A stretch of 64,000 nt of DNA from a bacterium (GTDB lineage Bacteria > CAYTYR01 > UBA6262), in assembly GCA_028712895.1 (NCBI GenBank), contig JAQTPL010000003.1, forward strand, positions 17,332-81,331. The letters run 5' to 3'. Shown here in pieces: positions 533 to 64,000 of the stretch. Positions within the stretch are counted from its first letter, which is position 1. Every line of letters begins with the position of its first letter. The notes under the pieces were generated by a model that ran no database searches, was not told the origin of the DNA, and worked only from the letters and a program-made list of their open reading frames with translations. A program made the translations under genes and the position numbers.

Positions 533-621
533 GTCTTCGGGTCCCGAGTCCCGGGTCTGCGGGTCAAGGTTCATAATTAATAATTCCAGACTCGAAGACT
601 CGCGACTCGCTAACTCGTGAC
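533..621. repeat. Degenerate GGGTC/CGACTCG word repeat with inverted arms (family A, copy 1)
   Basis: gtcttcgggtcccgagtcccgggtctgcgggtcaagg - loop - ccagactcgaagactcgcgactcgctaactcgtgac; near-copy at 42072-42162. Confidence 0.75.
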
Positions 622-14974: not shown

Positions 14975-15067
14975 CGATCTTCGGTAGCAACGGCTGGCTT
15001 AGAATACTGTCTTTAGCCCCTTTGGCTTTGCGTCCCCGCCTTTCGGCGGGTTTGCCTTTATCGGATC
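14975..15067 (-). ncRNA. GEMM / cyclic-di-GMP-I riboswitch aptamer (proximal of tandem pair)
   Basis: Minus strand AAGGCAAACCCGCCGAAAGGCGGGGACGCAAAGCCAAAGGGGCU...AAGCCAGCCGUUGCUACCGAAG with P1 CGAU/AUCG; matches remembered GEMM core GGCAAACC-hairpin-GGGACGCAAAGCC. Confidence 0.9.
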
Positions 15068-15181: not shown

Positions 15182-15283
15182 CATATTTCGGCGGCATGCG
15201 GCTGGCTTAAATAAGCTTGGCTTATTCTTAGCCCCTTTGGCTTTGCGTCCCCTGATTTCTCAGGGTTTGCGTTTTCGGATATG
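15182..15283 (-). ncRNA. GEMM / cyclic-di-GMP-I riboswitch aptamer (distal of tandem pair)
   Basis: Minus strand CAUAUCCGAAAACGCAAACCCUGAGAAAUCAGGGGACGCAAAGCCAAAGGGGCU...AAGCCAGCCGCAUGCCGCCGAAAUAUG, P1 CAUAU/AUAUG. Confidence 0.88.
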
Positions 15284-41058: not shown

Positions 41059-42054
41059 ATTAGGCTCAGCTTTGAAAGTCAGCATTTTCTGATGGTATTT
41101 TAATTTCTTTTTTCTAAACCGGTAATAGGCTGCACACCCGATCATAGCCGCGTTATCAGTGCATAGTATGGGACTGGGATAATATAATTTTATCCCGGTC
41201 TTTTCTATTTTTGCGGCAAAAAGGCTGCGGAGCGCTGAATTCGCTGCCACTCCGCCGGCGAGGACTATCTTCTTCATTTTTAGTTTTTGCGCCGTCTGGA
41301 TCGTCTTATTAACTAAAACCTCTATCACTGATTGTTGGAAAGAGGCGACGATATCTTTAGTACGCGGATGGCGGACGGCGGATGGCAGTTTGGAAACATA
41401 ATTAACAACGGCGGTTTTCAAACCGGAGAAACTGAAATCATAGGTGCCAGGCAAATACGGCCGGGGGAATTTTACAAAATACGGATCCCCTTGTTTTGCT
41501 AACCGGTCTATGACCGGGCCGCCAGGATAGCCAAGATCAAGTAATTTAGCCACTTTATCATAAGCCTCGCCGACCGCATCATCCCTGGTACGGCCTAATA
41601 TCCGATAATGAGCCAGATCGCGCTGGATGATCAATTCGGTATGGCCGCCGGAAATAACTAAAGCCAGAAATGGTGGTTTGAGCTGATGCTCGATGAAATT
41701 GGCATAGATATGTCCTTCAATATGATTCACCGGCAATAAGGGCAACCGGTAGATCAAGGCTAATGTTTTGGCCGCCATTATACCAGCCAGCAATGAACCG
41801 ACCAGGCCTGGCCCTTGCGTCACGGCCAGGGCATCAATATCCGTCATCCGCAGATGCGCTTTTTTCAGGGCTGCGGCAATAACGAAATTAATATTCTCCA
41901 GATGATGCCGTGATGCCAGCTCCGGCACTACCCCGCCATATTTGGAATGGATCTCGATCTGGGAGGAAATAACATTAGAAAGGATGCTTCTGCCGTTCTG
42001 TATTACGCCGGCACTGGTATCATCACAGGAAGTCTCAATAGCAAGAATGTTCAT
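41047..42054 (-). CDS. tsaD: tRNA N6-adenosine threonylcarbamoyltransferase TsaD
   Basis: MNILAIETSCDDTSAGVI; VTQGPGLVGSLLAGIMAAKTLA; NHIEGHIYANF; FSFSGLKTAV. Confidence 0.97.
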   Translation of the reverse strand: MNILAIETSCDDTSAGVIQNGRSILSNVISSQIEIHSKYGGVVPELASRHHLENINFVIAAALKKAHLRMTDIDALAVTQGPGLVGSLLAGIMAAKTLALIYRLPLLPVNHIEGHIYANFIEHQLKPPFLALVISGGHTELIIQRDLAHYRILGRTRDDAVGEAYDKVAKLLDLGYPGGPVIDRLAKQGDPYFVKFPRPYLPGTYDFSFSGLKTAVVNYVSKLPSAVRHPRTKDIVASFQQSVIEVLVNKTIQTAQKLKMKKIVLAGGVAANSALRSLFAAKIEKTGIKLYYPSPILCTDNAAMIGCAAYYRFRKKKLKYHQKMLTFKAEPNLQL

Positions 42055-42071: not shown

Positions 42072-42162
42072 GTCCCGGGTCTCGGGTCCATCGAGTCCGC
42101 GGGTCATGGTTAAAAAGATTTATCCAGATTCGAAGACTCGCGACTCGTGACTCGCAGACTGG
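42072..42162. repeat. Degenerate word repeat with inverted arms (family A, copy 2)
   Basis: gtcccgggtctcgggtccatcgagtccgcgggtcatgg - loop - ccagattcgaagactcgcgactcgtgactcgcagact. Confidence 0.75.
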
Positions 42163-44504: not shown

Positions 44505-44588
44505 GTTTTGAATTTTGAATTATGAGTTTTGAATTATGGTAAAAGTTCTTTACCTAAACTCAAAACTTAAAACTTATAACTTAAAACT
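44505..44588. repeat. Intergenic word repeat with inverted arms (family C, copy 1)
   Basis: gttttgaattttgaattatgagttttgaattatgg...cctaaactcaaaacttaaaacttataacttaaaac. Confidence 0.6.
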
Positions 44589-46581: not shown

Positions 46582-46669
46582 AGTGTCAAAGTGTCAGAGT
46601 GTCAAGGGGTCAAAGATTTTCCGATGACCCTTTTTAGTTTTTAGTGACCCTCTTTTTTGATACTTTTCA
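46582..46669. repeat. Word repeat GTGTCAAAG / TGACCCT with inverted arms
   Basis: gtgtcaaagtgtcagagtgtcaaggggtcaaag...tgaccctttttagtttttagtgaccctc. Confidence 0.6.
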
Positions 46670-47725
46670 TTGACCCTGTTCTTTTATCAGATTCATCGCC
46701 AGCCGTGCGTTCTCCCTGGCGTACTCTTGTAATTTTAACAGCACTGCATTTTGTTCGGTGGCTATGTTTTTCTGTCGGACTACCAGATCTTCCAGTTTTT
46801 GAACTATTTTATCACTGGTTACAGCTTGTTGTCCGAACAAGCGTAAGAAGCTATCGATCTTAGGGTCGTAATTAATTCCCAGCATCGGCTTCCCGTAAAC
46901 CGCAGCCAGGATCAAGGCATGCAGCCGCATAGAAATGAGGATATCCACGTTTTCATAAAAAGTAAAAATATCCTCCAGGGTGTCCCAATTCTTAAGGTCT
47001 ACTTTTCCTTTCATGCTTTCTTTAATGGCCCGGCTTAAGTTCACGTCATTAGGATCCTGGAAGGGAAGCAGCAGGATCCGGGCATTATAGGTATTTTTGA
47101 CGCTGTTCAATATCTCGCACCAGCGGGGGACAGACCGCAGCTTATCCTGGTCCTGCCGCAAGACTACCCCGATGCATAAGGGATGCTTCGCAACAGGATT
47201 GCAATTCTTCAACGTTATTCCCAGTACCGGGTCGGCAGTTATTTTGATCATAGTTTCCGGTACACGCAATTCCCGTAGTAATTGCAGGGACTTGTCTTCG
47301 CGCAGGGTGATTAAATCCATCTTGCCGATCCAGGCGTTCACCAGGAAGCGGGAAAGCCCCTTGTGCAAAGGACCGATGCCTTGGGCATAGAGCATAACTT
47401 TTTTGCGGAATATTTTCTTGGCAATGATCCCCCACCCCAGGTAATACAAAACGCTGCCCTGGCCGGTAGTATCCTGCAAGAGCCCTCCGCCGCCGCTGAT
47501 AAATAACCGGCACTGACGTAAAGCTTTAAAAATGCCAAAGACGTTTTTTCTTGATACTGCTTCGATCGCAGGGTGCAAATTGACCGTGCGCCAGGGATTG
47601 CTGCTGATCACCGTGATATCCAAAGCCGGATCAAGGCTCCGGAGATGTTCAATAATAGCTTTTAAGATAAGCTCGTCACCAAGGTTATCATAACCATAAT
47701 AACCGGAAATCAGAACTTTAGACAA
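46667..47725 (-). CDS. csaB: Polysaccharide pyruvyl transferase CsaB-like
   Basis: KVLISGYYGYDNLGDELILKAII; LFISGGGGLLQDTTGQGSVLYYL; DILISMRLHALILAAVYGKPMLGINYDPK. Confidence 0.92.
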   Translation of the reverse strand: MSKVLISGYYGYDNLGDELILKAIIEHLRSLDPALDITVISSNPWRTVNLHPAIEAVSRKNVFGIFKALRQCRLFISGGGGLLQDTTGQGSVLYYLGWGIIAKKIFRKKVMLYAQGIGPLHKGLSRFLVNAWIGKMDLITLREDKSLQLLRELRVPETMIKITADPVLGITLKNCNPVAKHPLCIGVVLRQDQDKLRSVPRWCEILNSVKNTYNARILLLPFQDPNDVNLSRAIKESMKGKVDLKNWDTLEDIFTFYENVDILISMRLHALILAAVYGKPMLGINYDPKIDSFLRLFGQQAVTSDKIVQKLEDLVVRQKNIATEQNAVLLKLQEYARENARLAMNLIKEQGQ

Positions 47726-60493: not shown

Positions 60494-60509
60494 TTAAAAT
60501 TCAAAGACA

Positions 60510-60574
60510 GTTTTGAGTGTTGAGTTTTTAAGTTTTGAATTAAGGATTAATCCCTTAACTCAAAACTCAAATTT
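60510..60574. repeat. Intergenic word repeat / inverted repeat (family C, copy 2)
   Basis: ttttgagtgttgagtttttaagttttgaattaaggattaatcccttaactcaaaactcaaa. Confidence 0.65.
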
Positions 60575-61285: not shown

Positions 61286-61304
61286 TATTAACCCCTTAGA
61301 ATAC

Positions 61305-61409
61305 AAATTCTAATATCTAACTTCTAAATCCTAAATCCAAATTTTCAAAATACTGCAATATTTGATTTTTGAACATTTGAAATTGTTTAGAGTTTAGATA
61401 TTAGGATTT
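61305..61409. repeat. Long inverted repeat of word type between rph and valS
   Basis: aaattctaatatctaacttc versus reverse complement of gagtttagatattaggattt (about 17/20). Confidence 0.55.
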
Positions 61410-61414
61410 CGGAT

Positions 61415-64000
61415 CTAGCTTAGCGACTGTAAATTATCTGCCAATTTTTGCTTATTCCCTTTAATTTCCATTGCTTTCCCTTTGACCCGGTCTATTTCCG
61501 CTAGAGGCGCCTTACGCATGAATTCTTTGTTGTTGAGTTTTACTTCCACTTTTTTAAGTTCTTCACCCAGCCGGGCAATTTCTTTTTCCAGGCGTTGCTG
61601 TTCCTTACTGACATCAATAATATCGGCCAGGGGAATATATATTTCCATGCCGGCGACTACCGCTGTGGCTGCGCTTGACGGTTTGGCTGTATCTCCTCCC
61701 AAACTCAGAGTTTCAAGCCTCGCCAGCGAAGAAAGGTATTGTATATTGCCGGCCAGTATTTCCTTTTGCACGCCGGAAACTTTGATCAAAGCCTTGATCT
61801 TCTGGGCAGGATTTATCCGCATTTCGCCGCGGATATTACGGATAGCAGACACAGTATCCATCACCAGGCTCATCCTGGAGATAGCTTGTTCATCGATATA
61901 TTTTTTATCTGCTTCCGGCCACTTCTGTGTCATTATGCTTTCTTTTCCCAGCGACCAGCTACTAGCGACCAGCGACTGCTTATTCTGCCATATCTCTTCG
62001 GTAATAAAGGGCATCAAAGGATGCAATAGTTTCAGGATACCGTCTAAAACATAGATCAATACAGCTTGGGCGATCTTCTTCGTTTCCGGTTCTTCCTCTA
62101 TATAGAGCCTGGATTTAACTACTTCCAAGTACCAGTCGCAGTATTTACTCCAGGTAAACTCATAGAGCAAACGCGAGGCTTGGCTAACATCATAATTCTC
62201 CAGAGCCTCATTAACCGCGCCAATTAATTTCTGGAATTCGCTTAAGATCCATTTATCTGATAGCTCCAAATGGGCAGCAACTATATTATCTAAACTGACA
62301 AAAGTGCCTTCTTTCAGGTTCATTAAGACAAAACGTGACGCATTCCAGAGCTTATTGCAAAAATATCGCGCTGCCTGGAAAGATTCATTCCCCAGCTGCA
62401 GGTCACGGCCCCGGATACCGTTATAAGCGAGGGTAAAACGCACAGCGTCTACGCCAAATTGCGCGCTAATGTCCAATGGATCAATGACATTCCCCAGGGA
62501 TTTGCTCATTTTTTTACCATGGCTGTCGCGTACAATACCATGTATAAAGATATCACTGAATGGAGTCTTGCCCATCAAAGTCAAGCCCATCATGATCATG
62601 CGGGCGACCCAAAGATAGATGATCTCATGGCCAGTCACCAGGACAGCTGTCGGATAAAAATAATCCAGGTCAGGATTTTTTGTTGGCCAGCCCAAGGTAG
62701 AGAACGGCCACAAGGCACTGGAAAACCAGGTATCCAGCACATCAGGATCCTGAACTAGCTCTGTACCACCGCACCTAGGACACTTTTCCGGTGGATTAAT
62801 ACCTACATAATCTGGTTTGATGCCGGATCGTAATATATAGTTATCTTTGCTGTCATCTTTAAAAATAATCTTATCTTTATTACATTTTAAGCAATACCAG
62901 GCAGGAATACGATGTCCCCACCAGATCTGCCGGGATAGGCACCAGTCATGCAGATTTTTCATCCAGAGCAAATATGGCTTCGCCCAATTGTCCGGAACAA
63001 ACTTGGTCTTTCCTTCCTCTACGACTTTCAGGCCAGCATCAGCCATTTCCCTGGTTTTCAAATACCATTGTTCGCTGACCAGCGGTTCTGTGGCGCTATT
63101 GCAGCGATAGCAACGGGTAATAGGTAATGTATAATCTTCTTCCTTCTGCAGGAACTCTTTAGCCTTGAGATCAGCCACGACTTTCTCCCTGGCTTTATAC
63201 CGGTCCTGGCCGATATATTCTTTGACCTCAGACTGGGAGATAACCCGGCCGTTCGTATCTACCTCAGCCTGAGGGGTAATTTTACCTTCTTTGTCTATGA
63301 CTTGGATCGAGGCCAAATTATGGCGCTTGGCTATTTCCCAGTCATTGGGATCATGAGCCGGAGTCACCTTGACTGCGCCAGTACCAAAACTCATCTCTAC
63401 CACATCGTCAGCTACCACTGGTATTTCCCTGTTCACCAGGGGTAAGACTAGCACTTTACCGATCAAATCCTTATATCGTTCATCTTGAGGATTGACTGCG
63501 ACAGCCGTGTCCCCCAGCATTGTTTCAGGCCTAGTGGTGGCGACAACTATATAGTCGCGAGTCTCGGGTCCGCGAGTCTGCGGGTCAGAGGTTTTTAAGA
63601 AATACTTTATATACCAGAGATGGCCTTTTTCTTGTTCGTGTTCCACTTCACTTTCATTAAGCGCAGTGCCGCATCGCGGGCACCAGTCTACAATATGCTC
63701 GCCGCGATAGATCCAGCCTTTGGCAAACAGTTGGCTGAAAGCAGTCCTGACAGCTAGTGAACATTGCTCATCCATGGTAAAACGGGTGCGTTCCCAATCG
63801 CAGGAACAGCCAAGTATCTGTAACTGCTTTAATATTGTATCCCCGGTTTCCTGGCGCCACTTCCACATTTTTTCCAGAAACTTTTCCCGACCCAGGTCAA
63901 AGCGGGTCTTACCTTCCTGTTTGAGCAGTTTCTCTACCACATTCTGGGTAGCAATACCGCCATGGTCTGTCCCCGGGATCCAACAGATCGGAAGACCGTC
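61415..64000 (-). CDS. valS: Valyl-tRNA synthetase, N-terminus beyond right window edge
   Basis: ICWIPGTDHGGIATQNVVEKLL read past the ORF-track start; VVATTRPETMLGDTAVAVNP; KMSKSLGNVIDP; C-terminal coiled coil. Confidence 0.97.
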   Translation of the reverse strand, partial: DGLPICWIPGTDHGGIATQNVVEKLLKQEGKTRFDLGREKFLEKMWKWRQETGDTILKQLQILGCSCDWERTRFTMDEQCSLAVRTAFSQLFAKGWIYRGEHIVDWCPRCGTALNESEVEHEQEKGHLWYIKYFLKTSDPQTRGPETRDYIVVATTRPETMLGDTAVAVNPQDERYKDLIGKVLVLPLVNREIPVVADDVVEMSFGTGAVKVTPAHDPNDWEIAKRHNLASIQVIDKEGKITPQAEVDTNGRVISQSEVKEYIGQDRYKAREKVVADLKAKEFLQKEEDYTLPITRCYRCNSATEPLVSEQWYLKTREMADAGLKVVEEGKTKFVPDNWAKPYLLWMKNLHDWCLSRQIWWGHRIPAWYCLKCNKDKIIFKDDSKDNYILRSGIKPDYVGINPPEKCPRCGGTELVQDPDVLDTWFSSALWPFSTLGWPTKNPDLDYFYPTAVLVTGHEIIYLWVARMIMMGLTLMGKTPFSDIFIHGIVRDSHGKKMSKSLGNVIDPLDISAQFGVDAVRFTLAYNGIRGRDLQLGNESFQAARYFCNKLWNASRFVLMNLKEGTFVSLDNIVAAHLELSDKWILSEFQKLIGAVNEALENYDVSQASRLLYEFTWSKYCDWYLEVVKSRLYIEEEPETKKIAQAVLIYVLDGILKLLHPLMPFITEEIWQNKQSLVASSWSLGKESIMTQKWPEADKKYIDEQAISRMSLVMDTVSAIRNIRGEMRINPAQKIKALIKVSGVQKEILAGNIQYLSSLARLETLSLGGDTAKPSSAATAVVAGMEIYIPLADIIDVSKEQQRLEKEIARLGEELKKVEVKLNNKEFMRKAPLAEIDRVKGKAMEIKGNKQKLADNLQSLS
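63554..63592. repeat. Half copy of family A repeat inside valS
   Basis: gtcgcgagtctcgggtccgcgagtctgcgggtcagagg, encodes DPQTRGPETRD. Confidence 0.7.

Follow-up and report, generated by a model that had tools for sequence, protein, structure and literature searches.

The in-frame segment at 63554..63592 of valS is best read as one single tandem array of short words (7–8 nt units) that belongs to a genome-wide class comprising hundreds of such arrays, and the same codons carry arrays of different words in two congeners. The most probable account, to which we assign a probability of about 0.7, is that old insertions have been tolerated in protein loops, that homogenisation and drift alter their units in place, and that new words occasionally spread. 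Positions are those of the window, i.e. the whole 64,000 nt stretch that was analyzed, and comparisons were made between its own genome (G000), two congeners (G001 and G002), a member of the same family (G003) and a member of the same class (G004).

The valS gene (61418..64000, minus strand) lacks its 5′ part, which is cut off at the window end, but the remaining reading frame of 861 aa is stop-free and its product matches the valine--tRNA ligase family PRK05729 of NCBIfam (1053 bits). The closest ValS proteins from named organisms are about 50% identical. On the coding strand, the insert (minus strand of the window, residues ~138–149, TSDPQTRGPETRD) reads GACCCGCA, GACTCGCG, GACCCGA, GACTCGC and a final GAC, a degenerate in-frame array of GACYCGC heptamers and octamers repeated in tandem with a period of 7–8 nt. 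The sequence-only reading had placed half a copy of an intergenic repeat word here, in frame, and the sequence, frame and gene are all as it claimed. The half-copy relationship is also borne out, as the array aligns over 36–41 nt with the left arms of the two intergenic repeats at 533..621 and 42072..42162, and both matches extend into the spacer step (GGGTCA-R-GGTT). Four or more GACYCG words are found together within 32 nt at exactly three places in the window, namely these two repeats and valS array 1, and in none of 200 first-order Markov simulations. The idea of a unique word shared with intergenic loci therefore stands as to the sharing, but the element itself is really a tandem array of period 7–8.

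At the same valS codons, the array word is GACYCGC in G000, (GACCAAC)n in G001 and (GACCGGC)4 in G002; in G003 and G004 the loop is short and array-free. The length, frame and apparent frameshift of the G001 array cannot be judged, because a scaffold gap (NN) lies within it. The peptides specified in the three congeners (TSDPQTRGPETRD, DDQRPTTND and TGDRRPATGD) are not conserved. The invasion of an essential gene by a repeat shared with intergenic sites is thus supported, and the valS genes of G003 and G004, together with the loop comparison of 71 proteins given below, restrict it to one lineage. What has to be given up is the view of a lineage-specific copy of one repeat word, since the congeners carry different heptamers at these positions. 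As far as these alignments go, the valS insert is not species-specific, and the presence of other heptamers in the congeners suggests that the insertion is older than the species and that its word has been rewritten since.

A short loop had been stated to be usual in ValS proteins, and this was found to be correct: of 71 ValS compared, taken from relatives and from bacteria of many kinds, 65 have 6–9 residues at this site, compared with 16 in the query. The remaining loops are 12–13 residues long; these include G002, which is represented by two of the 71 loci and carries heptamers, and two array-free proteins. An identical loop sequence in distant ValS proteins, which would have spoken against a lineage-specific insertion, was not seen among the proteins compared. 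Relative to the Thermus thermophilus ValRS structure (PDB 1gax), array 1 corresponds to an insertion of 10 residues. In the AlphaFold model it is placed at the turn of a beta-hairpin immediately ahead of the editing-domain motif ATTRPET, with residues 140–142 (pLDDT <50) lying between strands 119–135 and 150–155. A second array in the same gene (61948..61982, minus strand, residues ~676–686, SLVASSWSLGK) consists of in-frame, GACCAGC-type heptamers, a word also used by G001; residues 680–684 again have pLDDT <50, in a segment that comes after a helix end. Neither insert is present in the T. thermophilus enzyme, and they are two of the few segments of the model with pLDDT <50, so that both are predicted to be disordered loop segments. 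The valS gene of G002 contains a third array (L118:2950-2982) of the octamer TTTACCAC, with the peptide ILPLYHFTTLPLT, and no array was found at that site in the valS genes of G000 or G001.

All short periods were scanned in unbiased samples of 0.29–0.63 Mb from each of G000–G003, corresponding to ~15–35% of each genome. Periods 7 and 8, with their doubles 14 and 16, alone stand out in the four samples. At a strict threshold the counts for periods 7/8 were 13/3, 55/17, 8/3 and 34/1 in the four genomes, most other short periods gave 0–2 arrays, and local shuffles of the samples gave none at periods 7 and 8; a looser threshold yielded 75–205 arrays per Mb. The numbers of distinct canonical words were 31, 81, 27 and 22, and several words recur at many sites (in the G001 sample, ACGCTAT forms 14 arms and AACTCGC 11 arms). 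Arrays occur alone or as inverted pairs flanking a short spacer, with 10/34, 64/142, 6/23 and 26/49 arms in inverted pairs in the four samples. Between 68 and 82% of arrays per sample lie outside called ORFs. Of the 18–32% that lie within long ORFs, a few are protein repeats of the usual kind and the majority are in-frame, stop-free inserts in familiar enzymes; the proteins concerned (NCBIfam) are ValS (two arrays), ArgJ, PurL, PurQ, HisH, MiaB, TsaD, PrmC, NadC and a phosphohexomutase-like protein. A search of G004 with the pattern GACNNNC found no arrays, the backward-read control of that search being unclean because it also describes heptamer arrays. In 608 kb of loci drawn from a range of named bacteria, among them MAGs of Atribacteria, Nitrospirae and Chloroflexi, arrays of this kind are less frequent but present, indicating that the class extends beyond the lineage studied here. 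One such locus (L046, Candidatus Atribacteria 4572_76) has three multi-word arrays of period 7, two of them inverted pairs, within 6.5 kb. Contigs 8 and 58 of G001 (L169 and L245) terminate within or at heptamer arrays, which suggests that arrays break assemblies and may explain the breaks at these sites.

Several members of the class are found within the window itself. The two intergenic repeats that match valS array 1 (533..621 and 42072..42162) are inverted pairs of GACYCGC arrays, and both are predicted to form stable RNA hairpins (fold z-scores of -4.3 and -4.9; the two intergenic pairs tested gave z of -2.8 to -4.9). The G001 site orthologous to the second is an inverted pair of AACTCGC arrays. 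An in-frame GCCATCC array lies in tsaD (41354..41388, minus strand, SKLPSAVRHPRTKD). Further intergenic examples are an inverted pair of AAGTTTT arrays (44506..44588), a family that is multi-copy in G001 and G003; an octamer array, AGTGTCAA, with a degenerate inverted partner (46582..46700), where the orthologous G001 site has ATCAGGAT octamers; an inverted pair of AAGTTTT-type arrays downstream of rph (60509..60571), for which the G001 counterpart is an AACTCGC array; and an A+T-rich inverted pair of CTAAATC arrays in the gap between valS and rph (61300..61414). The window also carries tandem c-di-GMP-I riboswitch aptamers on the minus strand (14979-15065 and 15190-15281; Rfam RF03167, 63.5 bits, and RF01051, 60.2 bits).

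The change of word at a retained site is not confined to valS. For example, the argJ word is GCCATCC in G000, GGCCAAC in G001 and GACCAAC in G003, and the same tsaD codons carry GCCATCC in G000, CATCCAG in G001 and ATCAACT in G002. In purQ, the word is GACCCGC in G000 and GACGCAC, on the opposite strand, in G001, and G003 is array-free. G001 and G003 use different words in nadC and in prmC, and in hisH and the phosphohexomutase gene the array site is kept and the word is changed. For purL the word is GCAGATG in G000, GCTGGAA in G001 and GCAGATG in G003, and its occurrence in G000 and the more distant G003, rather than in the closer G001, points to a change in G001. Two paralogous phosphohexomutase families (L124, L179 and L243) have arrays at the corresponding loop, with differing words, in three species; either the insertion predates the duplication or one loop has been used repeatedly.

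Across orthologous coding comparisons an array was also present in 30 of 44, against 1–2% for a random 60-nt interval, a count in which valS site 1 is scored as a miss in some comparisons because its own array is degenerate. By manual reading of the comparisons, 9 of 10 coding sites are common within the genus, to within a few codons. Within the genus, 44 unique sites are shared and 7 of them have identical words; of the 34 sites shared with G003, where sites corresponding to arrays are frequently empty, none does. Word similarity at shared sites averaged 0.687 within the genus and 0.588 against G003, compared with 0.504 and 0.493, respectively, for permuted pairs, and the excess survives permutation within G+C classes. 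The likeness within the genus is strand-specific (0.687 on the same strand versus 0.497 for the reverse complement, p = 7e-6). This decay of similarity with divergence, together with the memory of strand, favors inheritance of arrays followed by drift and homogenisation in place. At about half of the shared sites, however, word likeness is at chance level, and some show a change of period (7 to 8) or of strand, indicating that replacement of whole arrays happens too. The octamer sites of G001 found an array in none of 13 comparisons with G000 and G003, and the near-lack of counterparts for these arrays in relatives points to recent spread.

The favored scheme can be set out as follows. A dispersal event in the ancestor of the genus would have placed an array, or half of an element, in the valS loop, where it may have survived because the loop tolerates added residues and the insert left the reading frame intact. 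Slippage during replication, or unequal exchange between units, would then keep the array homogeneous, and a mutated unit that replaces its neighbors would shift the word at a fixed site from one species to the next. Occasionally, a word would spread to new sites, as the octamer families of G001 may have done. The inserts are probably near-neutral for the host protein. Slippage by itself leaves the choice of a 7–8 nt unit unaccounted for.

An alternative that we consider unlikely is that the arrays are mobile palindromes of the RPE or REPIN type, moved by a Y1/RAYT-type transposase and inserted repeatedly and independently at the same tolerant sites. The recurrence of words at many sites per genome, the resemblance of the spacer-separated inverted pairs to REPIN or MITE elements and the look of recent arrival of the G001 octamer families would all fit, and Y1 transposase genes are present in all four genomes examined (none in G004). 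Array starts also prefer a C ahead of AGT (37/73, or 51%, against a background of 34%, p = 0.002). Independent insertions are difficult to reconcile with the 9 of 10 coding sites held in common and with the residual same-strand likeness of their words, and no target-site duplications were seen at the empty sites that were aligned. Of the six Y1 loci examined, five lack a nearby array and a single one has an array less than 1.5 kb away, and the Y1 gene of G000 bears direct repeats of its own, so that RAYT as the neighbor of the arrays is unsupported. A conserved array terminus, AAARC/AGT, was considered and found to be weak, given the size of the C excess at the first AGT. The G000 gene (contig 13, L275:859-1917, minus strand) specifies a RAYT-like Y1 transposase and is flanked by the 31-nt direct repeat AATATCTTGNCATCTTGACAACGTCCCTAAG, which contains two copies of an octamer-like word; gene and repeats are possibly a mobile unit separate from the heptamer vocabulary.

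Somewhat less likely still is a dedicated machinery of this lineage that writes and rewrites arrays of 7–8 nt words at fixed addresses, its enzyme setting the length of the unit and its words being copied from a changing vocabulary, the diversification of loops in essential enzymes being a by-product. A search for a reverse transcriptase as the candidate writer found none. It is doubtful that the arrays are functional sites (for mRNA or protein binding, or DNA structure) under selection for presence at fixed places rather than for an exact word, even though sites are conserved far beyond chance while the word is free, intergenic pairs fold into stable predicted hairpins, and comparable proposals have been made for the arrays of Geobacter (PMC2700814) and Beggiatoaceae (PMC4679880). 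Word, period, strand and G+C vary per site, leaving no sequence-specific target, arrays lie inside coding loops of many unrelated enzymes, and empty sites are frequent in G003. Ordinary slippage, in which each array would have grown on the spot out of the loop's native sequence and owed nothing to a dispersed element, is very improbable. Tandem repeats are known to arise by slippage, the number of units varies and the arrays lie in disordered loops, but the valS array 1 match to two distant intergenic elements includes the spacer edge, the same words recur genome-wide, and enrichment is seen only at periods 7 and 8, where slippage would be expected to give many periods, and multiples of three in genes.

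These arrays show that enzymes on which the cell depends can hold loop peptides of no apparent meaning and go on exchanging them, and they account for spurious differences between the loops of homologous enzymes in lineages of this kind.

The cyanobacterial STRR are among the closest known systems. Many bacteria have an excess of heptamer repeats, for which we know of no accepted origin. The repeats of Xanthomonas (GGGAATC) and Nostoc (GGGGA(T/C)T) are, like the arrays described here, dispersed 7-nt tandem arrays that are mainly intergenic and sometimes intragenic; in Xanthomonas inverted pairs are common and 83% of sites are common to two species, with the word kept (PMC4692102). They differ in having one G-rich word per genome that is maintained between species, whereas here there are dozens, mostly changed at shared sites, with periods of both 7 and 8 and many arrays in frame within essential enzymes. 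The hepta- and octanucleotide tandem elements of Geobacter metallireducens (GGACCGG x4, MTYCTGA and GTTGCTYN; PMC2700814) likewise fall into several families of words, with periods of 7 or 8, in and between genes and with some inverted pairs, but the available part of that account presents them as regulator binding sites with a fixed consensus and reports no word turnover at fixed sites. The TAACTGA direct repeats of marine Beggiatoaceae (2–6 copies, some in ORFs; PMC4679880) are also heptamer arrays, but of a single word found upstream of start codons, and the cases in ORFs are mostly at protein ends rather than in essential-enzyme loops with changed words.

A likeness to Rickettsia palindromic elements (~150 bp, inserted in frame in genes, with a peptide conserved per family; PMC10969869) had been suggested from the DNA alone. 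It holds for the in-frame invasion of unrelated metabolic genes, tolerated by the proteins, by a repeat that is also found at intergenic sites. It fails for the rest, as the arrays are short-word arrays of ~25–55 nt and not palindromes of ~150 bp, and the peptide varies even between congeners; membership of this family was rejected for the valS insert, a single array of ~39 nt without an inverted partner. REP/REPIN-RAYT systems (PMC2817692, PMC8049555) share the short dispersed inverted elements and the presence of a Y1 transposase gene in the genome, but 5 of the 6 Y1 loci examined here have no array beside them, single arrays are common, and the Y1 gene of G000 is flanked by unrelated direct repeats where the transposase gene of such a system would be flanked by copies of its own repeat. 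As for MITE features, inverted pairs are present, single arrays lack them, and no duplication is visible at aligned empty sites.

The searchable open-licence literature yielded no many-word vocabulary, no arrays in loops of many essential enzymes and no case of close relatives that keep a site but change its word, and the diverse vocabulary and the turnover of words at fixed sites appear to be undescribed there. The arrays belong to the bacterial class of heptamer/octamer tandem repeats (SSR/STRR-like), with units of 7 (or 8) nt in several copies, dispersed, mostly intergenic and sometimes in inverted pairs. One word per genome, a trait of Xanthomonas, Nostoc and Beggiatoaceae that does not define the class, is replaced here by 22–81 words per sample, and because the addresses are the same, the words differ and the alignment is pinned exactly by the reading frame of the protein, it becomes possible to measure directly how fast and in what way arrays are rewritten.
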